Shown here piece by piece: positions 52,444 through 63,230 of a stretch of 64,000 nt of DNA. This DNA comes from Tahibacter aquaticus (GTDB taxonomy: Bacteria; Pseudomonadota; Gammaproteobacteria; Xanthomonadales; Rhodanobacteraceae). The position numbers were made by a program, and so were the translations under genes. The notes below the pieces were generated by a model. The model did not search any database. It saw only the letters and a list, made by a program, of their open reading frames with translations, and was not told where the DNA came from. The stretch is from positions 62,001 to 126,000 of the forward strand of contig NZ_SNZH01000016.1 in assembly GCF_004363655.1 (NCBI RefSeq), in the 5' to 3' direction. Positions within the stretch are counted from its first letter, which is position 1, and every line of letters starts with the position of its first letter.

Positions 52444-55197
52444 TCAGCCGCGGCCGCCACCGAAGCGGTAGTTGTACTGCACCCACCACTGGCGGCCGTA
52501 GACGTCGTACCAGCCGATGGAGTAGTACGGCCAGCCCGCGCTCTTGTCTACCGGCAGGGAGTTGCGCAGGTTGTTGACGCTGACCAGCAGGTCGGAGTTG
52601 CTGCCGATCTCGTAGCCGACGCTGCCGTTGTAGACCGTATACGAGCGGCGCAGGCCGACGTAGGCGTTGTCGGAAATCTCGCCGTAGCGCGTGCCGTCCA
52701 GGCGTGCGCTCCAGGCGCCCAGCTGCCAGGACAGCGAGGCATTCACCTTCTTGCGCCAGTCCGACTGCGAACTCAGGTCGTTCAGGTAGTCACGCACCGG
52801 ATCGCCGGGGAATTGCTGGTAGACGTGTTCCAGCACGCGGGTAAATGCGGCGCGGGCCTGGAACTTGCCGATACCGTCGAGCGCGAAGCGGTAGTTCGCG
52901 CTGATGTCGATGCCCGAGGTGCGTTCGGTGGCCGCATTGACCGGATTGACCAGGATGTTGGTGACGGTATTCGGATTCACCGGCGCCGTAGCCGAGGTGC
53001 GTACGACGCGGGCGAAGGCGTCGCGGCACAGGGTCGAGTTCACGTCGATCGGCGTGCCCGACGGCGTGCGGCCCAGGCGGCAGTCGGCTTCGGTGCGCAG
53101 GATCTGGTCTTCGTCGAGATTGGTCACGCCGTCGCTGATGCGGATGCGGTAGTAGTCGGCCTGCAGGTCGAAATCGGCAACCGGCGACCACACGAAGCCG
53201 TAGCTCAGCGAATTGCCGCGCTCGGGCTTCAGCCCGGTATTGCCGCTGGAGGCGAAGTTCATGTTGTAGCTGACGTCGCAGCTGTTGTACGGCTGGTTTT
53301 GCAGGCGGCACTGGTAGTAGTCGGTGACGCCGGGGAAATAGCCCAGGGTGCTCTGCGCGAACAGGTAGTTCATGTCCGGCGCGCGGAACGAGGTGCCGCG
53401 GGTAGCACGCAGCAGCAGGGTTTCGTGCGGGCGGAATTCCAGCCCGGCGTTGTAGGTGCTCTTGCCGATCTGCTTGCCGTCGTAGCTGAAGCGGTCGTAG
53501 CGCGCCGCACCGGTGGCGGTCAGGGTGGAGAGGATCGGTGCATTCAGCTCGAATCCGGCGGCGTAGCGGTTGCGGCTGCCGTGTTCCAGGGTGGCGGCCG
53601 AGGTATTCCAGTAGACGCCGTTATTGATGCGCGAATCGGGCGTGTTGCGGAAGCCCTGGCGGCCGGTTTCCACCACGCCGGCAATGCCCAGCGGCCCGGC
53701 CGGCAGTTCCAGCAGATCGCCGTTGAAGCTGAAGCTGAGGTCTTCGGTCCAGGCCTTGTTGCGCGAGGTCGAGCTGGCGCTGAGGCGGCGGAACTCGTCC
53801 GTGGTCAGCGGCGTGATCAGCCGGGCGGGGTCGGCGTTGTAGGCGGCAAAGGTCGAGCCCTGGTAGTCGTGCGAGCCGGTGCGCGGGCCGAGGAAGAAAT
53901 CGGTGATGCCGGCGAGCAGGCGCACGCGGCCCTGGTCGCTGACGTAGTCGGAACGGTTGGCCGCCAGCTCGTAGCGCCAGCCTGCGTCGCCCAGGGTGCC
54001 GTTGATGCCGAAGGTGAGGTTGGTCGAGCGTTGCAGGTAAGTGGAATTGTTGCCATTTCTCCCACCCATTTCTTCCGGCGTCAGCACGCGGCTCCAGTTT
54101 TCCAGGCGGCTGGTGGCCTCGTTCCAGAACGCACCGGCCGGTGCCGACCAGGTGGTATTGCGCACGTTGTTCTCCACGTCGGAGAAACCGAACATGAAGT
54201 CGCCGAACAGTTCGGTACTGTCGTTGAGCGCGTACTGCACGCTGGCATAGCCGGTGGCCAGCTTCTTCGCGGTCTGGATGGTGCGGTTGTTGTAATAGCC
54301 GTCGCTGCTGCAGTACGAACCGTCGTAGCGCGGGTTTTCGTAGGCACGCAGGCTGCCGTTCATCAGATGGCCGATACCGGCGCAACCGCTGCCGGGCAGT
54401 TCGTAGTAGTCGCCGGTGGCCGGGTTGCGCAGGGCGAACAGGGCGCCGGGCAGGTCGTCCGGGGCGTAGCGCGAGTAGCTGTTGGTCAGGCGCCGGTCGC
54501 CCCAGCGGATCGGTTCGCGGTTGGTCAGTTCCACGCCGAATACGGCCGACAGATCGCCGCGCGTGCCGCCGCCGCTGATCTGCACTCGCTGGTTGGCGCC
54601 GCCGCCCTGCTGGGTGCCGCCGACCTTGAGCGACAGGTCGATGCCCTGCTGCTTTTTCTTCAGCACGATATTGACCACGCCGGCGATGGCGTCCGAGCCG
54701 TAGATGGCCGAGGCGCTGCCGCTGAGGATTTCCACGCGCTCGATCATCACGCTGGGAATATTCGCCAGATCGACCGCGCTGACCGAGCCGTTGTACGCCA
54801 CCGGGTAGTCGGCGACGCGGCGGCCGTTGACCAGTACCAGGGTGTGGTTGGGGCCCAGTCCGCGCAGGTTGATCACATTGGCCGCGGGCGTGAAGGTGCT
54901 GCCGAAATCTTCGCCCTGTACCGTGCCGGTGTTCTGTGTCACGGCGGTGAGCACGTCGAATACGCTGCGATACCCGCCGGCATCGATGTCGCCGGCATCG
55001 ATCACGGTGACCGGCGAAGGGCCTTCCACCGTGGCGCGGGGAATGCGCGAACCGGTGACAGTGACGGCTTCCAGCTGCGCAGCCTTGGCCGGATCGGCAG
55101 AGGTGGCGTCGCCGGCCTGTGCCTGCGCAGGCGCATGGACAGCGAAGAGTAAAGCGGTGAATAAAGCAGAAAAAGACAGTCGTACAGAAGTGCTCAT
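52444..55197 (-). CDS. TonB-dependent outer-membrane receptor
   Basis: 917 residues. The signal peptide covers about 1-26 (ending APAQAQA). A TonB-box-like stretch AVTVTGSRIPR follows at about 43-53, then the plug domain with NVINLRGLGPNHTLVLVNGRRV and IERVEILSGSASAIYGSDAIAGVVNIV (seen in parts), then a 22-strand barrel ending in the aromatic WVQYNYRF plus a short tail. Cys pairs in extracellular loops (for example YCSSDGYYN and CRLQNQPYNSCD) are typical of large-substrate receptors. The substrate is not predictable. ATG 55197 has AGG upstream; a GTG-type extension to 55236 is less likely. It has its own promoter region (55198-55478). Confidence 0.9.
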   Translation of the reverse strand: MSTSVRLSFSALFTALLFAVHAPAQAQAGDATSADPAKAAQLEAVTVTGSRIPRATVEGPSPVTVIDAGDIDAGGYRSVFDVLTAVTQNTGTVQGEDFGSTFTPAANVINLRGLGPNHTLVLVNGRRVADYPVAYNGSVSAVDLANIPSVMIERVEILSGSASAIYGSDAIAGVVNIVLKKKQQGIDLSLKVGGTQQGGGANQRVQISGGGTRGDLSAVFGVELTNREPIRWGDRRLTNSYSRYAPDDLPGALFALRNPATGDYYELPGSGCAGIGHLMNGSLRAYENPRYDGSYCSSDGYYNNRTIQTAKKLATGYASVQYALNDSTELFGDFMFGFSDVENNVRNTTWSAPAGAFWNEATSRLENWSRVLTPEEMGGRNGNNSTYLQRSTNLTFGINGTLGDAGWRYELAANRSDYVSDQGRVRLLAGITDFFLGPRTGSHDYQGSTFAAYNADPARLITPLTTDEFRRLSASSTSRNKAWTEDLSFSFNGDLLELPAGPLGIAGVVETGRQGFRNTPDSRINNGVYWNTSAATLEHGSRNRYAAGFELNAPILSTLTATGAARYDRFSYDGKQIGKSTYNAGLEFRPHETLLLRATRGTSFRAPDMNYLFAQSTLGYFPGVTDYYQCRLQNQPYNSCDVSYNMNFASSGNTGLKPERGNSLSYGFVWSPVADFDLQADYYRIRISDGVTNLDEDQILRTEADCRLGRTPSGTPIDVNSTLCRDAFARVVRTSATAPVNPNTVTNILVNPVNAATERTSGIDISANYRFALDGIGKFQARAAFTRVLEHVYQQFPGDPVRDYLNDLSSQSDWRKKVNASLSWQLGAWSARLDGTRYGEISDNAYVGLRRSYTVYNGSVGYEIGSNSDLLVSVNNLRNSLPVDKSAGWPYYSIGWYDVYGRQWWVQYNYRFGGGRG

Positions 55198-55478
55198 GCG
55201 TAATGCCTGGATTGCCGAGAGCGCGAACCTTCGCATTTGTACCTTTCGTGCCGCAATGCCCGCGGCATGATTTCTTCAGGCGCGCATATTCCGCAACGCC
55301 ACTGCGCAGTTACGCATGCATTGCGGAAAAAGCAGGTAGCTCAACGGCTGGGGCGGTCTCGCGGCGCAATGGTCCGGACAGCTTCGCCGTTGCAGAACCG
55401 GGACTCCTGCGCGGTTCTGCAACATGGCCGCAGCCGGCCCGGACGTTGCGCCAGTCCTGCGCGGCGCGGTCGCCGCGT
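55198..55478 (-). promoter_or_regulatory. Upstream region of the TonB-dependent receptor with an inverted repeat
   Basis: TTCCGCAA (55289-55296) and TTGCGGAA (55321-55328) form an eight-base inverted repeat 24 bases apart, about 90-130 bp before the start codon. Inside is TACGCATGC (55311-55319), which also occurs upstream of the cupredoxin operon. No confident -10/-35 pair was seen. Confidence 0.4.
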
Positions 55479-55976
55479 CTACTTGTGCAGGATGTCTGGA
55501 CGCATCGGCGCAAAGATCTTCAGCATGCGGTTCTGCGTGCGGTAGGGCAGCCTGGCGTCTTCCATCGCGTCGATGAAGTCTTCGACGAAGGCGTCGAATT
55601 CTTTTTCCTTCAAACCCAGGCCGCTGTGGCTTTCGGCCATGCTGCGGCCGGAATAGGCGCAGGGGCCGCCGGATTCGTTGCAGAACTGTTCGCGGATCAG
55701 CCGGGCGAGATTATTGCGGTCGGCCTCGGCGAACAGGAAGGCGATGCGTTCGTCGGCATAGACGCGTTGCAGCAGTGCCTCGACCAGGGTGGCGACGCCT
55801 TGTTCTCCGCCGAGGGCGCGATACAGCGAATCATCGCGTGCGGGCGCATCGGCCGTGGTAGTCGATGCATCGGCCGCGGCATGCGGAGCGCCGTCCGCGG
55901 CCACGTTGCCGGCCACTGCGAGGAGTGCCATTGCCAGCAAGGCGCACGGGGTATGCAGTACGAAGTGGCGGCGCAT
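55479..55976 (-). CDS. Exported group 1 truncated haemoglobin
   Basis: 165 residues. An N-terminal signal peptide (about 1-27, ending GNVAA) and an Ala/Thr-rich linker precede the 2-on-2 globin (about 48-165). Family marks: SLYRALGGEQGVATLVEALL, RIAFLFAEADRNNL, then QFCNESGGPCAYSGRSM and AESHSGLGLKEKEFDAF with the proximal His (about 118). Most truncated haemoglobins are cytoplasmic, so the signal peptide is notable. It could bind O2 or NO in the periplasm; ligand cannot be told. It overlaps the DUF3034 gene by one base (TGATG) and is the last gene of the operon. Confidence 0.88.
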   Translation of the reverse strand: MRRHFVLHTPCALLAMALLAVAGNVAADGAPHAAADASTTTADAPARDDSLYRALGGEQGVATLVEALLQRVYADERIAFLFAEADRNNLARLIREQFCNESGGPCAYSGRSMAESHSGLGLKEKEFDAFVEDFIDAMEDARLPYRTQNRMLKIFAPMRPDILHK

Positions 55977-56854
55977 CAGAAGGCTCCTTGCAGGGACAGG
56001 TACCAGCCGGTCTGGTCTTGCAGCGTGGCGACGGTGCCGAGATCGACGTAGGCGAGTACCAGCGACAGATGGCGATTGGGAAACCAGGCGATGAACAGGT
56101 CGCGCCAGTCGTCTTCCGGCAGGCCACTCAGATTGCCGGATTTGCGCCGGTATTCGGCGCCGATGGCGAAATGGCGCGACAGCAATACGCCGCCGGAGAT
56201 TTCCGCCTGCAGTCGTCGGCCGGAATGCAGCGGTCCGCCGAAGCCGAGCAGGCCGGTTTCGTTGGCCCGGGTCCAGCGCGCCGTGCCGTTGATGAAGGCA
56301 TTGAAATTGCCGACGCCGGCGAGAAATACCTTGGTCGCGCTGAGGTAGACATCCACATCGCTGTCGTCGGTCGCGCCGACCACGCTGGGAATCAGAAAGT
56401 CGCGATTCTTCTTGTACTGCACACCCAGCGAAACCTGCGGCCAGTCGGTATAGATCACGTCGCCGAAAAGGCGCAGCTTGACGCCGACTACGTGCTGGCG
56501 CAGGTGCGCGCCGGGCAGGCCGAGCGCCGGCCCCAGTGTGATCAGGTCAAGATCCTGCCGCGCCAGCGACAGTTCGATGCGGTTGAACAGGCCGACCGCC
56601 GCGCCCTGGCTGTCGAGGCGGTAGTCGCCCGTATCGACACGGCTGGCGAACGCGGTGGCACCGATTTCGTCGCCGGTGCCATAGCCGGTGATGGCGGCCC
56701 AGGGCACGATGCCGCCGCCCGCGCTGCCTTCGATCGTACTGGCGCCGCCAGTGGCGAGCTGGCGTGTGCCGGCGGCCGTGGCAGTGCCGGTTGCGAGCAG
56801 CGCCAGCACGCCGAGTAGCGCTATGCATTTATTGCCAAAGATATAATTTTTCAT
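55976..56854 (-). CDS. DUF3034 family outer-membrane barrel
   Basis: 292 residues. The signal peptide covers about 1-28 (ending ATAA). The mature protein alternates polar and hydrophobic residues in beta-hairpins and ends in the aromatic SLQGAF, as outer-membrane barrels do. The family marks are GGIVPWAAITGYGTGDEIGA near the N-terminus and SLGVQYKKNRDF. The role of DUF3034 is unknown. It lies 24 bp after the kinase-like gene and overlaps the haemoglobin gene. Confidence 0.83.
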   Translation of the reverse strand: MKNYIFGNKCIALLGVLALLATGTATAAGTRQLATGGASTIEGSAGGGIVPWAAITGYGTGDEIGATAFASRVDTGDYRLDSQGAAVGLFNRIELSLARQDLDLITLGPALGLPGAHLRQHVVGVKLRLFGDVIYTDWPQVSLGVQYKKNRDFLIPSVVGATDDSDVDVYLSATKVFLAGVGNFNAFINGTARWTRANETGLLGFGGPLHSGRRLQAEISGGVLLSRHFAIGAEYRRKSGNLSGLPEDDWRDLFIAWFPNRHLSLVLAYVDLGTVATLQDQTGWYLSLQGAF

Positions 56855-56878
56855 GGTGCAGATTTCCCTTGGCGTGCG

Positions 56879-58879
56879 TTACAGGCGACAGCGGTCCAGC
56901 TCGCGCTGGACGGCAACCGCGTCGGCAAAGCGTTTGGCCGGATCGCGTTCCAGGCAGCCCAGCAGCAGTGCCTCGATCGGCGGCGGTATTTCGGTCCACA
57001 GGCGCGATGGCGGCGTCGCCTCGCGCTGCACGCGCGCGCGGCACAGCTCGGCCGGGCTGCCGGACTGGGGCAGGCGCGAGGTGAATACTTCGGTCAGGAT
57101 CAGGCCTAGCGTGTAGACATCGTCATGGTGGTCGGCCAGCTTGCCGACGATCTGCTGCGGCGACAGATACGTGGGATCGCTACGCAGCTGCAGTTCCGGA
57201 CGCGCCGCATCGAAACCTGGCGGCGGTGGAGTCAGGCCCAGATCGAGCAACTGCGCAGCCATGCCCGGTGACAGCACGATGTTCGACGGGCGCAGGGCGC
57301 CGTGGGCGGTGCCGGCCGCATGGATGCCTGCAAGACCGGCGCAGATATCGCGCGCCACATGCAGCGCTGCATACAGGGGAATGCGGCCGGTGCGGGCCAG
57401 TGCCTGTTTCAGCGTGATGCCGCGCACGTATTCGCCGGCCACATAGATGCCTTCGTCGATCTGGCCGACATCGCCGATGCGCGCGACACCCGGGTGATTC
57501 AGGGCGGCGCCGGCACGCAGCAATTTCTTGATGTGCGCGGCATGTCCGGTGTCGGCGATGGCCGTCGGCCCGAGCAGCTTGAAGGCGACCACTTCGCCCT
57601 GGCGCCGGTCCAGCGCGCGATAGACCACGCCGCTCTGGCCCGCGCCGACGCGGGCATAGATTTCGTAGCGATCCGCCAGCACCGTCCCCGCCTGCAGGCG
57701 CGCGGCGGCGCCGTGATCGATCGCGGCAGCGGCGTCGCCGCGCGGCCCGGTTTCGCTGCTGCGCGTACGCTGGCGCAGCAAGTCGGCGCTATAGGCCTCG
57801 AAGTCGCGCTGTTCGCGCAGTTCGCCGACCAGCCGGCCCAGCGCCTGTCCCAGCGCGGCGCTGCCGCCGCTGCCGGCGACGGGAACCGGTTCCAGGGCAC
57901 CAGTGCCGATGCTGGCAGCACTGCGGCTCAACTGGCCCAGCGGCGCCAGCAGCCGCCACCAGGCCAGTGCCGCCAGCAAAACGACGGCGCACGCCAATAC
58001 GGCGCCGCCGACCAGCAGATCGGTGCGGACGGCTGCATACGGCGCGGCGACGGCAGTCTGTTCGAGCAGGGTGATCAACAGGCTGTTGCTGCCGTCCTCG
58101 GCGCTGGCTTGCAGCCGTACCAGCCAGCGGTTCGGCCCCAGTGCGAGCAGCTCGCCGCGGCTTTCCTGGCGGCCTTCGGTCCAGCCGTGCGCAGTGGCGG
58201 CTGCGAGCAGCTGCTTGCGCATATCCGGCTCGAGCGTACTGGCCACGACCTTGAAACCATCGGCGGTACGGGCGAGCAAGGCCAGGTCGGTGCCGGCGAT
58301 CTGGCCTATGCGTCTGGCGCCAGCGTCGTCGACGAACTTGCCGCTGACCAGCACGCCTTCGCTGCTGCCGCCGAGCAGCAGAGGCTCTACTGCGATCTGC
58401 AGCAGCTGGCTGCGGCTGGACAGGTAGCCGCTGGCGGGCTGCAGCGACTGGATGACCTGGGCCACGGCCAGGTTGTGCGACAGATCCGAGCGCGTACTCT
58501 GGTAGGCCGAGGTGTCGACGATGGTGCGGCCCTGGTTGTCCAGCAGCAGGGCTACATCCATGTCGAGCTGGCCGCGGCGCTCGTCCAGCAGGTCGCGGAT
58601 CGACGCGCTGTCGACCGCGCCGCCGCTGCCGCCGCGCAGCGATTGCGCGATGTAGCTGACGAAGCCCTGGTCGGTGCTGAGCTGGCGCGTGATCAGGCGC
58701 AGTTCGCGTGCGCGCGCGTCCTGCAAGGCGGCATGGGCCAGCGCCGCGCTCTGCAGCCGTTCGGCACCGAGGCGGCGCGCGTCCGTGTCGGCGCTGTGTA
58801 GCACGCGCCATCCGGCCAGGGCGATCAGGGCGAGCAGCAGCATGCTGCCCAGCACCAGCAGAATCTTTTCGGTACGCAT
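56879..58879 (-). CDS. Transmembrane sensor with a C-terminal protein-kinase fold, probably a pseudokinase
   Basis: 666 residues. Membrane helix at about 7-27, a cache-like periplasmic sensor (about 28-280) with LLLDNQGRTIVDTSAY and GVLVSGKFVDDAG, a second helix at about 287-308, a HAMP-like linker, then a Hanks-type kinase domain (about 402-665). The glycine loop VGAGQSGVVYRA and Lys 434 (VVAFKLL) are kept, but the catalytic loop HRDxKxxN reads HGALRPSN (526-533), so the catalytic Asp is Ala 528 and Lys is Arg. The DFG position reads DLG (546-548). Phosphotransfer is therefore doubtful; it may bind nucleotide and signal by conformation. It lies three bases after the cupredoxin gene. Confidence 0.85.
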   Translation of the reverse strand: MRTEKILLVLGSMLLLALIALAGWRVLHSADTDARRLGAERLQSAALAHAALQDARARELRLITRQLSTDQGFVSYIAQSLRGGSGGAVDSASIRDLLDERRGQLDMDVALLLDNQGRTIVDTSAYQSTRSDLSHNLAVAQVIQSLQPASGYLSSRSQLLQIAVEPLLLGGSSEGVLVSGKFVDDAGARRIGQIAGTDLALLARTADGFKVVASTLEPDMRKQLLAAATAHGWTEGRQESRGELLALGPNRWLVRLQASAEDGSNSLLITLLEQTAVAAPYAAVRTDLLVGGAVLACAVVLLAALAWWRLLAPLGQLSRSAASIGTGALEPVPVAGSGGSAALGQALGRLVGELREQRDFEAYSADLLRQRTRSSETGPRGDAAAAIDHGAAARLQAGTVLADRYEIYARVGAGQSGVVYRALDRRQGEVVAFKLLGPTAIADTGHAAHIKKLLRAGAALNHPGVARIGDVGQIDEGIYVAGEYVRGITLKQALARTGRIPLYAALHVARDICAGLAGIHAAGTAHGALRPSNIVLSPGMAAQLLDLGLTPPPPGFDAARPELQLRSDPTYLSPQQIVGKLADHHDDVYTLGLILTEVFTSRLPQSGSPAELCRARVQREATPPSRLWTEIPPPIEALLLGCLERDPAKRFADAVAVQRELDRCRL

Positions 58880-58882
58880 GGA

Positions 58883-59902
58883 TCAGCGCGCCGGTGGACG
58901 GTAGCTGGCACCGTCTTTGCGCTGGTGCTCGGGAATGACCGGCTTGGTCGCCAGCAGTTTTTCCAGCAGCGGTGCCGCCAGCGGCAAGCTGATTTCGCGC
59001 GCGATCATGCCGCTGCGCGGATGCCACAGACTCAGCGTGCCCGGGCCCGGCGGCAAGCCGGTCAGAGCAAAGCGGCCTTCGCCGTCGACGCGGGCAAACC
59101 ACGGCGTCGGGGCGACGAGTACGTCCGCATGCATGCTGTGATGGACATTGCAGAAGATCTGCACCACGGTGGCGCGGTTGAACACGGTTTCGGCGCTCTG
59201 GCCTTCGCCATACAGGCCCAGGTCGAAGCCGGCGCCCGTGCTGGGCGAGTAGACGTTGTGCAGGATCTCGTCCTGGTTGGGGAACGACACCGTGCTGCCG
59301 GCCGGCACCACCAGCACTTCCGGCTCGAAGCGCTTGTTGCGCGTGACGATGCTGTAGCGGCCGGGCTTCGGCCGCGGGGCGCCGCGCGCGGGCACGAAAT
59401 AGACGATGGTGTTGGTGATTTCGCCGGCCGCGATCTGCTGGCCCGGACCAGCGGCCAGCTCGATGCGGCCTTGTACCTGTTCATTGCCTTCGACCACGCC
59501 AGTCGGCGTTGCGGATGGTGCGGCGACCGCCGGTGCCGCATGCGCTGCTGGCTTTGCTGCAACAGCTGCCGCTGCGGGCTTGGGCGCAATGGGGGCGGCA
59601 GCGGGTTCGGCGGTAGCAGGCCTGGGCCCCGCCACGGGTTTTTCCCGCGCCGGTGCAGCAGGCGGTGGAGCAACCGGCGGCGCAGGTGACGGCAGCGCGG
59701 GCGGTGGCGGTTCTGCTGCATCCGTTGCGGGTGCTGGTGCTGGTGCTGCGGGCGGCGGCACTGGCGCGGCGGCCTCCGCGTTTCGGGGCGGTGGTGCGGC
59801 CGGCGCCGCGTCGCGCACTTCGTGACGTGTTCCGGCGCAGCCTGCGCACAGTAAAACGAAGGCCAGCAGTGCCGACCTGCTATCCCAGACTTTCGCTCGC
59901 AT
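58883..59902 (-). CDS. Cupredoxin-domain lipoprotein
   Basis: 339 residues. A lipobox LCAGC puts the lipidated Cys at 22. Residues about 30-135 are a Pro/Ala-rich linker reaching into the periplasm. The C-terminal cupredoxin (about 160-270) has the type 1 copper ligands His 215 in EILHNVYSPS, then Cys 251, His 254 and Met 257 in FCNVHHSMH. A strand-rich tail follows, with GLPPGPGTLSLWHPRSG. It is often annotated as methylamine-utilisation-like, but no mau genes are present. AGGGGA precedes ATG 59902 by eight bases. It heads the operon cupredoxin, pseudokinase, DUF3034, haemoglobin. Confidence 0.84.
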   Translation of the reverse strand: MRAKVWDSRSALLAFVLLCAGCAGTRHEVRDAAPAAPPPRNAEAAAPVPPPAAPAPAPATDAAEPPPPALPSPAPPVAPPPAAPAREKPVAGPRPATAEPAAAPIAPKPAAAAVAAKPAAHAAPAVAAPSATPTGVVEGNEQVQGRIELAAGPGQQIAAGEITNTIVYFVPARGAPRPKPGRYSIVTRNKRFEPEVLVVPAGSTVSFPNQDEILHNVYSPSTGAGFDLGLYGEGQSAETVFNRATVVQIFCNVHHSMHADVLVAPTPWFARVDGEGRFALTGLPPGPGTLSLWHPRSGMIAREISLPLAAPLLEKLLATKPVIPEHQRKDGASYRPPAR

Positions 59903-60291
59903 CGCGGTGTTTCCCCTAGTGTGTGCATGCCGAGGTGACTGCGGCGAACGCTGTTGCGATCACTCGCGCGAAAAATCCGGACCCCGCTCGATGCGCGGCG
60001 CAGGCTGCGGCGCGCAGAGTGAACGCGGTGTGCAAATTTCGCGTGATCGACGCCTTTGTTGTGCCTGTGCGTAATAACTTCCCACAACGGTACGCATGCG
60101 TATCCAAATGCAGGCGGTTTCAGGCGATAACGAAAGGCCAGTAATCAGCGTTGCCGCTGGCGCTGCGGGTTTTACACCGACGCCAAGTCGCAGCACATAC
60201 GAAGGGTTTCGCCGGCGGATGCAGTGACGAAATGTAAATTTCGCTGCGCAGCCGGCAACAGTCGGCCGGCATATCGCTTCCCGCGCGGGGC
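59903..60291 (-). promoter_or_regulatory. 389-bp gap upstream of the cupredoxin operon
   Basis: No gene supported. It holds a perfect 12-bp palindrome TACGCATGCGTA (60091-60102), 189 bp before the operon start, next to a locally AT-richer stretch (about 60052-60082). GCATGC recurs at about 59925. The right part also takes in the 3' side of the methyltransferase gene, where I see no clear terminator, only GCCGGC repeats (60251-60270). Confidence 0.4.
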
Positions 60292-61041: not shown

Positions 61042-63230
61042 GGCGTGCTCTCCGGACAAAGCGTGCGGTATACCTCGCGCTGGCGTGCGGCCATCGCATC
61101 CCAGGTGAAATTTTCCAGAATGTCTGTGTCTGCACATTCCAGCGTATGACGCAGGGCGCTGTCGCGCAGCAGCGGCGCTATCGTCGCGGCCATGCCGGCG
61201 ATGTCGCTGCTGCTGCGCAGGCCCTGCAGTCCGGCCGCGGCGAAACCGCGCGCGCCGTCGGCGGTGCTGGCGCAGACACGCCCGGCGAGCAGCGACTCGA
61301 TCAGCTTGATCGAGGAACCGCGGATATCCATCTGCGGATTGATGCTCAGGCTACATTCGGCCAGGTGCGGCGCCGGATCGACGAAGGCCGAGACTAGTTC
61401 GATGCCGGGCTGGCGCAGGCGTGCGTCCTGCTCGGCCACGGCGGCCGATTCGACGCCGCCGAGTATGCGCAGCCGCAACTGCGGGAATTCCGCCCGCAGC
61501 GCCGGCCAGGCCTGCTCGATGAAGGCGAGGATGCCGCTGCGGTTCTGCGCGTAGCGGAACGGGCCCATGAACAGCAGCAGCCCGTCGGGCGAGGGCGTAT
61601 AGCCGGCACGGCGGTCGATCGCGCCGTTGCCGATCAGGCTAGCCGGCTGCGGCGCCAGCAGCGCGGCGTCTTCGTCCGAACAGACCACGACGGCGTCGTA
61701 GCGCGCGATCGCCGCGCGCTGCAGGGCATCGTCGGCACCGTCGCCCTGTGCGCTGACATAGACGTCGTGCAGGCACAGCAGCCAGCGCTGCTGCGCCGTG
61801 TGCATGTCGGCCAGTTCGACCAGCTCCATGAATTCCACTTGCACGATGTCGGGCTGGAACTGGGCGATGCGCGTCGCCAACTCGGCGCGCAGTCCGGGCC
61901 AGGCATGCCGCCGCAGCCTCGCGGGAAAGTCCAGCGGCGGCTCGCCGGCCCTGTCGCCGCGGCCTTCGAGCAGCTGGGCGCCGCGGAAATGCTGCAGCCA
62001 GGGTTCGGACGCGGCGCCGTACAGCGAGGCTTCGTCGCCGAGCAGGAAAAAATCCACCTGTTGCGAAAGCCGCGTGACCAGTTCGGCAATGCGCCGCGCG
62101 CCGCCGTGGGCCGGCGGGAACAGCGCGAACGGTGTGACCAGGATCACGCGCGGGCGCGGTTGTTCGCCCTGCGGCGCCGGTCCGTACCAGTAATCCTTGG
62201 TAATGCGCTCGAAACGCAGGCCGCACTGGCGCGCGCGTTCGGTCGCCAGGCGGCTGCGGAACGCGCGCCAGGCCAGGCCGATGCCGCGCAGTTCGCGGCG
62301 CGACGGCGCGTCCAGCCGCAGCAGACGGTCCAGCGTGCGCAGCGGGTGGCGTCGGGTCCAGCGATGACGCAGGTCGAACAGCAGCTCGTTGCGCTTGATC
62401 ACGCGAGCGACTTCGGCCTCGTCGAAATAGCGCCGCACCGTGCCGCGGTGGTGATGGTGCGCGTGCGAGGCGGGGCAGAACACCAGTTCCCAGCCTTCGC
62501 TCCAGGCGCGTATGCCCCAGTCGGCGTCTTCCCAGTAGAACGGGCTGTAGTCGCGCGAATCGGCCACGTAGCGGCGCAATACCTCGGTGCGGCACAGCGA
62601 CGAGCCGCCGCCCGGGTACAGATTGCCGCGTGCCACCCGGGTGGCGCCCGGGTCGCGTTCGTAGACTTCGGCGAAATCCGGATTGATATGGAAGTCGGAC
62701 CAGCCGGTTTCCTCGCGACGGCGTGTGCTGTCGACGAAGAAGATCTGCGAGGTGATTGCGAATACCTGCGCGTGCCGGTACGGCAGCAGTTGCGCGAGTG
62801 CGTCTTCGGCCAGGCGCATGTCGCTGTTGAGCAGATAGCTCCAGCCATGGCGCGCGGCGCGCAGTCCCGCTTCGATCGCACCGTTGTAGCCCAGCGCTGC
62901 GGCGTGGAACTGCCAGTCGTAGCCGGGCCAGCGTTGCAGCAGCGCGGCATAGTCTTCGCGCGCTGCGCCGTTGACCACGACGATGACCTGGGTGGGTTCG
63001 CTCAACGGGGCCAGTGCAGCTTCCAGCGCGGCCAGCGTTTCCGCCAGCAGGTCTGGCGTGCCGCGTTCGGGCACGATCACCGACACGCCGCGCAGCGCCG
63101 CTCCGCGCGCCGTGCGCCGCTTGCCCGGGCGCCGGCGGGCGAGCTGGTCGGCCACCAGCAGCGCCGCGGCCAGCGGGAGATGCGGCAGCAGGCGCCAGGC
63201 GGCGCCGGCGAGTTCGCGCAGACGGCTCAT
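61038..63230 (-). CDS. Two-domain glycosyltransferase: GT2-like N-terminus and GT4-like C-terminus
   Basis: 730 residues. The GT2 domain (about 45-300) has VSVIVPERGTPDLLAETLAAL, YLLNSDMRLAEDAL as the DxD-type metal site, and YWEDADWGIRAWSEGWELVF with the ED acceptor motif. The GT4-like domain (about 380-730) has FPPAHGGARRIAELV, VQVEFMELVELADM, LLLFMGPFRYAQNRSGI and a late SSIKLIESLLAGRVCAST. Two sugars added by one protein suits O-antigen or capsule assembly. ATG 63230 overlaps the previous TGA (ATGA); an ATG three codons upstream (63239) is possible. Confidence 0.85.
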   Translation of the reverse strand: MSRLRELAGAAWRLLPHLPLAAALLVADQLARRRPGKRRTARGAALRGVSVIVPERGTPDLLAETLAALEAALAPLSEPTQVIVVVNGAAREDYAALLQRWPGYDWQFHAAALGYNGAIEAGLRAARHGWSYLLNSDMRLAEDALAQLLPYRHAQVFAITSQIFFVDSTRRREETGWSDFHINPDFAEVYERDPGATRVARGNLYPGGGSSLCRTEVLRRYVADSRDYSPFYWEDADWGIRAWSEGWELVFCPASHAHHHHRGTVRRYFDEAEVARVIKRNELLFDLRHRWTRRHPLRTLDRLLRLDAPSRRELRGIGLAWRAFRSRLATERARQCGLRFERITKDYWYGPAPQGEQPRPRVILVTPFALFPPAHGGARRIAELVTRLSQQVDFFLLGDEASLYGAASEPWLQHFRGAQLLEGRGDRAGEPPLDFPARLRRHAWPGLRAELATRIAQFQPDIVQVEFMELVELADMHTAQQRWLLCLHDVYVSAQGDGADDALQRAAIARYDAVVVCSDEDAALLAPQPASLIGNGAIDRRAGYTPSPDGLLLFMGPFRYAQNRSGILAFIEQAWPALRAEFPQLRLRILGGVESAAVAEQDARLRQPGIELVSAFVDPAPHLAECSLSINPQMDIRGSSIKLIESLLAGRVCASTADGARGFAAAGLQGLRSSSDIAGMAATIAPLLRDSALRHTLECADTDILENFTWDAMAARQREVYRTLCPESTP

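Follow-up and report, generated by a model that had tools for sequence, protein, structure and literature searches.

In this report, we will focus on a four-gene operon of Tahibacter aquaticus, which lies in a window of 64,000 nucleotides (the whole stretch of DNA that was analysed, positions 62,001 to 126,000 of contig NZ_SNZH01000016.1) and encodes a cupredoxin, a membrane sensor, a DUF3034 barrel and an exported globin. The explanation that we find best overall, and to which we would give an even chance, is that these genes specify an unnamed envelope signalling system, of which the window carries a variant with a degenerate kinase output. That the set is a recurring system can be considered practically certain, and gene linkage together with conservation make it very likely that it works as one functional system. 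On the same reading, this widespread envelope system would be built from two modules that are found apart as well: the DUF3034 barrel with the exported globin, and a type-1 copper cupredoxin with an inner-membrane cache sensor.

The operon

A first-pass annotation, made from the sequence alone, had described a set of four closely spaced genes, and the re-read list of open reading frames gives the same picture. The frames span 59902-55479 on the minus strand in the order cupredoxin, sensor, DUF3034 and globin, with gaps of 3, 24 and -1 bases, the DUF3034/globin junction overlapping by 1 base (TGATG). Each frame was begun at its first possible start codon, and N-terminal lengths are therefore upper bounds.

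58883..59902, minus strand: cupredoxin gene, 339 residues, with an N-terminal Cys motif (LLCAGC) and a Pro/Ala-rich arm ahead of the copper domain
56879..58879, minus strand: sensor gene, 666 residues, with a periplasmic CHASE4/dCache region, a HAMP-like region and a C-terminal protein-kinase fold
55976..56854, minus strand: DUF3034 gene (PF11231), 292 residues, predicted outer-membrane beta-barrel of 12 strands
55479..55976, minus strand: globin gene, 165 residues, exported truncated globin of group 1 type
59903..60291, minus strand: non-coding region upstream of the operon, with no sigma-28-like promoter in the 300 bases scanned

The signal sequences, a lipobox-like motif and two membrane helices, all assigned by eye, agree with the annotation's statement that every product is exported or membrane-bound. 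No NCBIfam model scored above its cut-off for any of the four proteins.

Conservation of the set

DUF3034 is present in 39 of 398 genomes of the phylum, 17 of 97 of the family and 77 of 299 of the order, and in none of the 14 control genomes. We surveyed 178 DUF3034 loci (58 + 80 + 40), which come from three overlapping samples, one of them hand-picked; surveyed loci are numbered with L and genomes with G, G000 being the window genome. The 58-locus sample consists of the neighbourhoods of the phylum and family matches, including two loci from G078, one of which is a broken copy (L058). The named sample holds the best 80 of 562 confirmed matches and is weighted toward close relatives of the query, and the order sample holds 40 of 91 listed places, hand-picked for spread over families, so that its tallies are not proportions. 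At least six named loci duplicate loci of the other samples (L143/L060, L152/L092, L153/L059, L174/L067, L207/L100 and L208/L265).

The globin lies beside DUF3034 in 176 of the 178 loci (57/58, 80/80 and 39/40 by sample), the two others being the broken copy L058 and L301, whose contig stops immediately after DUF3034. A cupredoxin is found near DUF3034 in 143 of the 178 (43/58, 76/80 and 24/40). In the 58-locus sample, a sensor of the window family occurs in 41 loci (43 proteins), and no other family occurs in more than 6 loci, except for 14 further proteins that cluster with sensors carrying GGDEF and EAL domains. The association can also be seen at the genome level: in the phylum sample, the cupredoxin family (E<=1e-8) is present in 38 of the 39 genomes with DUF3034 and in 42 of the 359 others, and above 100 bits, a line that was drawn after viewing the list, in 38/39 and 16/359, respectively. 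Named carriers of the set include Pseudomonas, Stutzerimonas, Xanthomonas, Marinobacter, Dyella, Dokdonella, Pseudoalteromonas and Colwellia.

The modules are likewise encountered apart. Of 26 loci that have a cupredoxin away from DUF3034, 17 continue directly downstream with a cache sensor of the window family, and the other 9, including some cut by contig ends, lack such a gene there. At least four genomes (G389, G225, G261 and G213) hold the two modules at separate places.

The annotation had called the set recurring but uncharacterised, and had proposed to survey genome neighbourhoods for joint occurrence of the four families. Such a survey confirms that they recur together in other genomes across the surveyed Proteobacteria. 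Searches of the literature for DUF3034, PF11231 and combinations of truncated hemoglobin, cupredoxin, GGDEF, EAL, cyclic diguanosine monophosphate (c-di-GMP) and FliA found no study of the set among the titles and abstract openings listed, most subscription journals lying outside the search. DUF3034 was mentioned in a figure legend (the same legend elsewhere reads DUF3037) and in a table entry for a Streptomyces protein, and PF11231 in no paper.

Exchangeable outputs of the sensor

The commonest sensor type, which we call class A or the EAL class, has a cache-HAMP-GGDEF-EAL architecture and is found in 115 of the 178 loci. These proteins are probably c-di-GMP phosphodiesterases, because 128 of 136 long sensors contain EAL together with DDFG-type motifs, while a canonical GG[DE]EF is found in 24; that the class acts on c-di-GMP we hold to be highly probable. 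Class B comprises the loci of the window's order that have a Ser/Thr kinase output, of which the window is a degenerate derivative. By sample, with the class labels of L106, L280 and L157 assigned by hand, we count 35 EAL loci, 5 without output, the window type once and 17 without sensor in the 58-locus sample; 73 EAL, 2 without output (L148 and L208) and 5 without sensor in the named sample; and 9 with an intact kinase, 7 EAL, 5 without output, 1 degenerate kinase (L280) and 18 without sensor in the order sample. L148, counted here as lacking an output, is a fragment of 299 residues in a Pseudomonas and probably a broken EAL-class gene, and L208 is the same place as L265.

Intact kinases near DUF3034 and globin were found in L261, L272 and L284-L291, with a cupredoxin in all but L287, which is at a contig end. 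More generally, the class-B kinase-sensor family occurs in 51 of 299 order genomes (E<=1e-80), and 20 sampled loci all have a cupredoxin directly upstream and an H[RK]D motif (HRD in 19, HKD in one). When the window sensor was searched against eight genomes of its genus, it found, besides itself, one best match in each of seven (34-37% identity, 171-182 bits), the next best match having 119 bits; the eighth genome (87% complete) gave 110 bits at best. Six genomes, namely the window genome (G000:C17:65184-68520) and five of the same genus, contain a parallel cluster (L117-L122) in which a cupredoxin directly precedes a cache sensor of 889-909 residues with intact HRD and DFG. In L122, genes for a porin-like protein and an FHA protein follow the kinase sensor.

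The degenerate kinase fold of the window sensor

The following features of the window sensor are relevant here:

58277..58585, minus strand: CHASE4/cache region, residues 99-201 (Pfam CHASE4, 31.0 bits, cut-off 26.2)
56924..57667, minus strand: kinase-fold domain, residues 405-652 (Pfam Pkinase, PF00069, 92.4 bits, cut-off 31.7)
57281..57304, minus strand: catalytic loop HGALRPSN replacing HRDIKPEN, from an alignment with six intact relatives

The HAMP region scores 14 bits, below the cut-off of 25, and Pfam gives no EAL or GGDEF match in the protein. In comparison with the six intact relatives, the alphaC Glu has become Leu, HRD has become HGA, DFG has become DLG and APE has become SPQ, and the linker of about 200 residues that precedes the kinase in these relatives is missing, while the Gly loop, the beta3 Lys434 and the DLG Asp are kept. 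The first-pass annotation had named this protein a pseudokinase, which agrees with the loss of the HRD Asp and the alphaC Glu, and the kinase fold is in all likelihood catalytically dead, as far as its residues tell. As a description of the set in general, the term does not hold: most loci carry GGDEF-EAL sensors, another class has an intact Ser/Thr kinase, and a degenerate kinase is found in two loci, the window and L280, whose sensor reaches just 16.6 bits with Pkinase (cut-off 31.7) and has no HRD. It would take an atypical mechanism for the domain to be still active, which we regard as very improbable: the retained Gly loop, beta3 Lys and DLG Asp and a profile score well above the cut-off would fit it, but the HRD Asp and the alphaC Glu are both lost, against an H[RK]D in 20/20 sampled relatives. 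The window genome gives 45 matches to the sensor-kinase query, mostly to the kinase part, and encodes many Ser/Thr kinases (22-45 matches per genome in the genus).

In a tree of 91 sensors, the window sensor clusters with L280 and ten sensors that lack an output (Shimodaira-Hasegawa-like approximate likelihood ratio test support of 95), and this cluster adjoins the kinases L272 and L262 (93) and then the kinases of family f94 (83). The tree was midpoint-rooted and its inner order is open, so that one and several losses of the output are indistinguishable in it. An earlier tree of 49 sensors agrees, with the window and five output-less sensors grouped at 99/96, and a quick tree of the cupredoxins independently unites the window, output-less and intact-kinase rows (94). 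The simplest reading of these trees would be that the intact kinase is the older state, which was later lost. Since all eleven degenerate or output-less relatives that group with the window still have the cache region and the cupredoxin, the periplasmic part would have been retained after the loss of the enzyme.

The same observations bear on whether the window sensor gene is simply decaying, its kinase output being lost through drift after the lineage stopped using it, which we consider a real but less probable alternative. The ten relatives of the same group without an output domain and the further degenerate L280 fit with decay, as does the same-genus locus L105, which retains only DUF3034 and globin, flanked by the same two neighbours as the window operon; tblastn searches of L105 (E<=1) with the cupredoxin and the sensor of the window as queries gave no match. 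However, the frame of 666 residues is open and the gene tightly spaced, the ATP-site residues are still in place, and decay does not sit well with the cache region and cupredoxin kept in all eleven relatives.

A flagellar-type promoter in the EAL class

We scanned 141 stretches at the cupredoxin start (300 bases upstream and 150 inside) with eight regulatory patterns and compared the counts with shuffles. A further pattern, the sigma-28 (FliA) consensus T[AC]AAG-N13..16-G[CT]CGATAA, was chosen after some enriched 7-mers in these stretches had been seen to resemble its -10 box. With it, a sigma-28-like promoter is found in 25 of 111 EAL-class DUF3034 operons at <=1 mismatch (0.0 in shuffles) and in 48 of 111 at <=2 mismatches (2.8), counts that are not independent, the 111 operons including many close relatives; among the 12 sites without any mismatch, seven come from named Xanthomonas and two more are near-identical in family f2. 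As a control, the other genes of the same loci gave 2/1614 at <=1 mismatch, one of the two being the same operon's site. At <=2 mismatches, the promoter was found in 0/20 class-B loci beside DUF3034 (intact kinase 0/8, degenerate 0/2, no output 0/10) and in 0/7 DUF3034 loci without sensor; away from DUF3034, it was found in 1/26 kinase loci and in 1/13 loci where no sensor was seen. The best match in the 300 bases upstream of the window operon has 3 mismatches.

The FliA gene, surveyed in 80 genomes with a cut-off of 189.6 bits, exceeds this cut-off in 34 of 42 EAL-class genomes, in 1 of 20 class-B genomes and in 12 of 18 genomes without sensor. The window genome has no FliA over the cut-off (best 113 bits), and the same-genus genome G473 has one. 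Among the eight patterns, NsrR-like and RpoE/ChrR-like sites show a modest excess at two mismatches (10 against 5.0 expected, and 25 against 14.7), Fur-like and CueR-like sites were found in 0/141 stretches at <=2 mismatches, and for the FNR/Anr, NorR, sigma-54 and sigma-E patterns, which were set aside, the counts were close to those in the shuffles.

The periplasmic and outer-membrane proteins

The annotation's claim of a copper protein is supported by a conserved type-1 copper site:

59132..59260, minus strand: type-1 copper ligands His215, Cys251, His254 and Met257 (C-x2-H-x2-M, amicyanin-like spacing)

These ligands are invariant in 28/28 sequences, and in a larger alignment the first His is kept in 151/151 and the other three in 150/151 (one gap), although the window protein scores 18.5 bits with Pfam Copper-bind, below the cut-off of 21.2 (its relative L094 scores 24.5). 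In profile searches of the PDB, the best matches are copper nitrite reductases, with amicyanin among the others after them. Its LLCAGC motif, judged by eye, makes it probably a lipoprotein. The arm ahead of the copper motif has 207 residues in the window, which is also the median for the class-B cupredoxins beside DUF3034 (21 proteins, 2 without a readable motif), as compared to medians of 90 in 123 other DUF3034-linked cupredoxins and 115 in 25 from kinase loci without DUF3034. A Pro/Ala content of one half is passed by only 7 of the 21.

The globin matches Bac_globin with 54.1 bits (cut-off 21) and has the proximal His117 and a Cys99/Cys106 pair. Among 137 relatives, the proximal His and the CD1 Phe are kept in 137 and each Cys of the pair in 135, which is in line with the annotation's exported haemoglobin, its export being judged by eye. 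The closest solved relatives are group 1 truncated haemoglobins of HbN type, in which Tyr B10 and Gln E11 form the distal pair (HbN numbering, placed by the alignment with structural relatives). This pair is absent from the window globin and its relatives (n=137), which have apolar residues instead: B10 is Leu, Met, Ile or Val in 136/137 and E11 is apolar in 137/137, the window having Leu and Ile. Apolar pockets are linked in other haem sensors with discrimination against O2, and by this analogy the pocket suggests that nitric oxide (NO) or another ligand may be favoured over O2. A periplasmic detoxification of NO or O2, with the globin as an exported NO dioxygenase that receives its electrons from the cupredoxin, appears quite unlikely: the HbN-type relatives and the haem ligand kept in all 137 relatives would suit it, but the HbN pair is replaced by apolar residues, and the four best PDB chains, which come ahead of 1idr, are HbN entries altered at B10 and/or E11.

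The window DUF3034 protein matches PF11231 over its full length (367.7 bits, cut-off 25, model positions 1-255 of 255). An AlphaFold2 model from 30 sequences has 12 strands and a mean predicted local distance difference test (pLDDT) score of 81.6, with residues 22-51, including part of the most conserved motif, under 50. Foldseek and VIA-align placed FapF (5o65) on top (Z 19.2, 12% identity), the COG4313 barrel 4rl8 reaching Z 18.3 with 8% identity, and KdgM and NanC, like the COG4313 channel, were near the top of the fold matches. The DUF3034 profile gave only two partial matches in the PDB at E<=1 (Ika8 and Ika4, profile positions 39-77). The model and its fold matches support the annotation's view of DUF3034 as an outer-membrane barrel; a transport function is not thereby backed.

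Such a function would be expected if the set served haem or copper homeostasis, with a barrel that imports or exports haem or copper, a globin and a cupredoxin that act as periplasmic buffers, and a sensor that only tunes expression. The channel-like 12-strand model and the conserved metal and haem ligands are compatible with this, as is an adjoining gene for a TonB-dependent receptor, which lies directly downstream of the operon (52444-55236) and has a counterpart in the same position at L105:8358-11111. Yet most loci encode a probable c-di-GMP enzyme and many have a flagellar-type promoter, which would be odd for a nutrient system, and no Fur-like or CueR-like site was found in the 141 stretches at <=2 mismatches; we therefore consider homeostasis unlikely, if less so than detoxification.

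Other neighbours of the set

Genes for an extracytoplasmic function (ECF) sigma factor and an RskA or ChrR-cupin anti-sigma factor lie within 5 kb of DUF3034 in 16 of 178 loci, none of them in the named set (0/80); control loci gave an ECF match anywhere in 0/26 and 1/20. The loci are L049, L090, L091, L094, L096, L097, L274, L275, L277-L279, L281, L289, L296, L297 and L299, and some of them also carry a Lipoprotein_15 (PF03640) gene. These neighbours are a lead in some lineages and not a defining feature of the set. At L296:4414-5820 and L297:9356-10777, an apparently exported protein of 468-473 residues stands behind the cupredoxin, in the usual position of the sensor, and the one from L296 had no Pfam match at E<=0.01. 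In L218, L221 and L229, away from DUF3034, the cupredoxin is followed by a possible outer-membrane protein of 411-416 residues, as if another barrel had replaced DUF3034; with Pfam, the protein of L221 is matched only weakly and that of L218 not at all.

A possible mechanism

If the set is an envelope signalling system, the barrel and globin would form its outer-membrane end, where a diatomic gas, haem or a redox signal would be met. The cupredoxin, which in the window is probably lipid-anchored by way of a long, flexible arm, would carry the redox state to the cache domain, which in turn would switch the cytoplasmic output. We infer the sensing of haem or copper and the direction of the signal, and a copper-haem relay to the cache domain is a tentative proposal, on balance more doubtful than probable. 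Since the output in most of the surveyed loci is probably a c-di-GMP phosphodiesterase, in many cases preceded by a sigma-28-like promoter, the signal would tip the balance from settling to swimming. In the lineage of the window, the output would have become a Ser/Thr kinase and then lost its catalytic residues, the protein possibly acting without phosphotransfer, either as a pseudokinase that binds a nucleotide or a partner, or as a mere membrane anchor of a periplasmic complex. The most far-reaching version, which we put forward as speculative and rather unlikely in its entirety, is that of a trans-envelope relay: a globin on a barrel and a blue-copper protein would report gas or redox state to a cache sensor, often as a member of the flagellar regulon, the output being interchangeable between a c-di-GMP phosphodiesterase, a Ser/Thr kinase, a pseudokinase and none at all, and the periplasmic copper-haem complex of the window lineage would have outlived its enzymatic output, so that it would also serve without a second messenger.

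Several observations weigh against such a signalling system. DUF3034 and globin stand without both cupredoxin and sensor in 14/58, 4/80 and 15/40 loci, and being often alone they may have a job of their own; the interactions between cupredoxin and sensor and between globin and barrel are suggested by gene linkage only. In the 91-sensor tree, the branches of the window sensor and of L280 are both long. Concerning the flagellar link, EAL-class cupredoxin operons without DUF3034 have the promoter in 0/13 cases at <=1 mismatch and in 3/13 at <=2 (0.6 expected), and the DUF3034 gene's own upstream region has it in 0/80 and 11/80, respectively. Moreover, no FliA match above the cut-off was obtained in 8 of the 42 EAL-class genomes, including four that belong to another class of the phylum. 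Ancestry confounds the comparison of FliA with output class, and some class-B genomes are incomplete.

If such a system exists, a haemoglobin that is exported and a copper protein, both linked through operon structure to c-di-GMP turnover and flagellar control, would give bacteria a new means of monitoring extracytoplasmic gas or redox state. The presence of the set in Pseudomonas, Stutzerimonas, Marinobacter and Dyella, among others, makes it amenable to gene deletion, and the series of intact kinase, degenerate kinase and no output in the window's order constitutes a natural experiment, in which a sensor loses its enzyme and the periplasmic partners stay.

Comparison with known systems

Each component has known relatives from which it differs. 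The DUF3034 barrel resembles FapF and the COG4313 barrels in its 12 strands, outer-membrane location and size, but at 12 and 8% identity the common fold is no proof of a common function. The cupredoxin has the same copper set (His, Cys-x2-His-x2-Met) as amicyanin and the small blue copper proteins, to which it is only weakly similar and from which it differs by an extra C-terminal region and, in the class-B proteins linked to DUF3034, by the long N-terminal arm. The globin belongs to the same family as HbN (1idr), with its proximal His and CD1 Phe, and is distinguished by its export, its Cys pair (135/137) and its apolar distal pocket. The paralogous class-B cluster L117-L122 shares a cupredoxin next to a cache sensor with a kinase domain, but unlike the window it has intact kinase motifs and the linker of about 200 residues, and no DUF3034 or globin nearby.

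As for the system as a whole, E. coli PdeH (YhjH) is an EAL enzyme under a sigma-28 flagellar promoter, as the EAL class would be here. PdeH is soluble, whereas the EAL-class enzyme is membrane-bound, as a cache sensor, and shares its operon with a cupredoxin, a barrel and a globin, and the window, with neither an EAL domain nor a sigma-28-like promoter, is unlike PdeH in both respects. The H-NOX and NosP haem sensors that work with GGDEF/EAL enzymes also couple a gas-binding haem protein to c-di-GMP turnover. Those haem proteins are cytoplasmic, whereas the globin of the present set is apparently exported, which would place the inner membrane between the globin and the enzyme.

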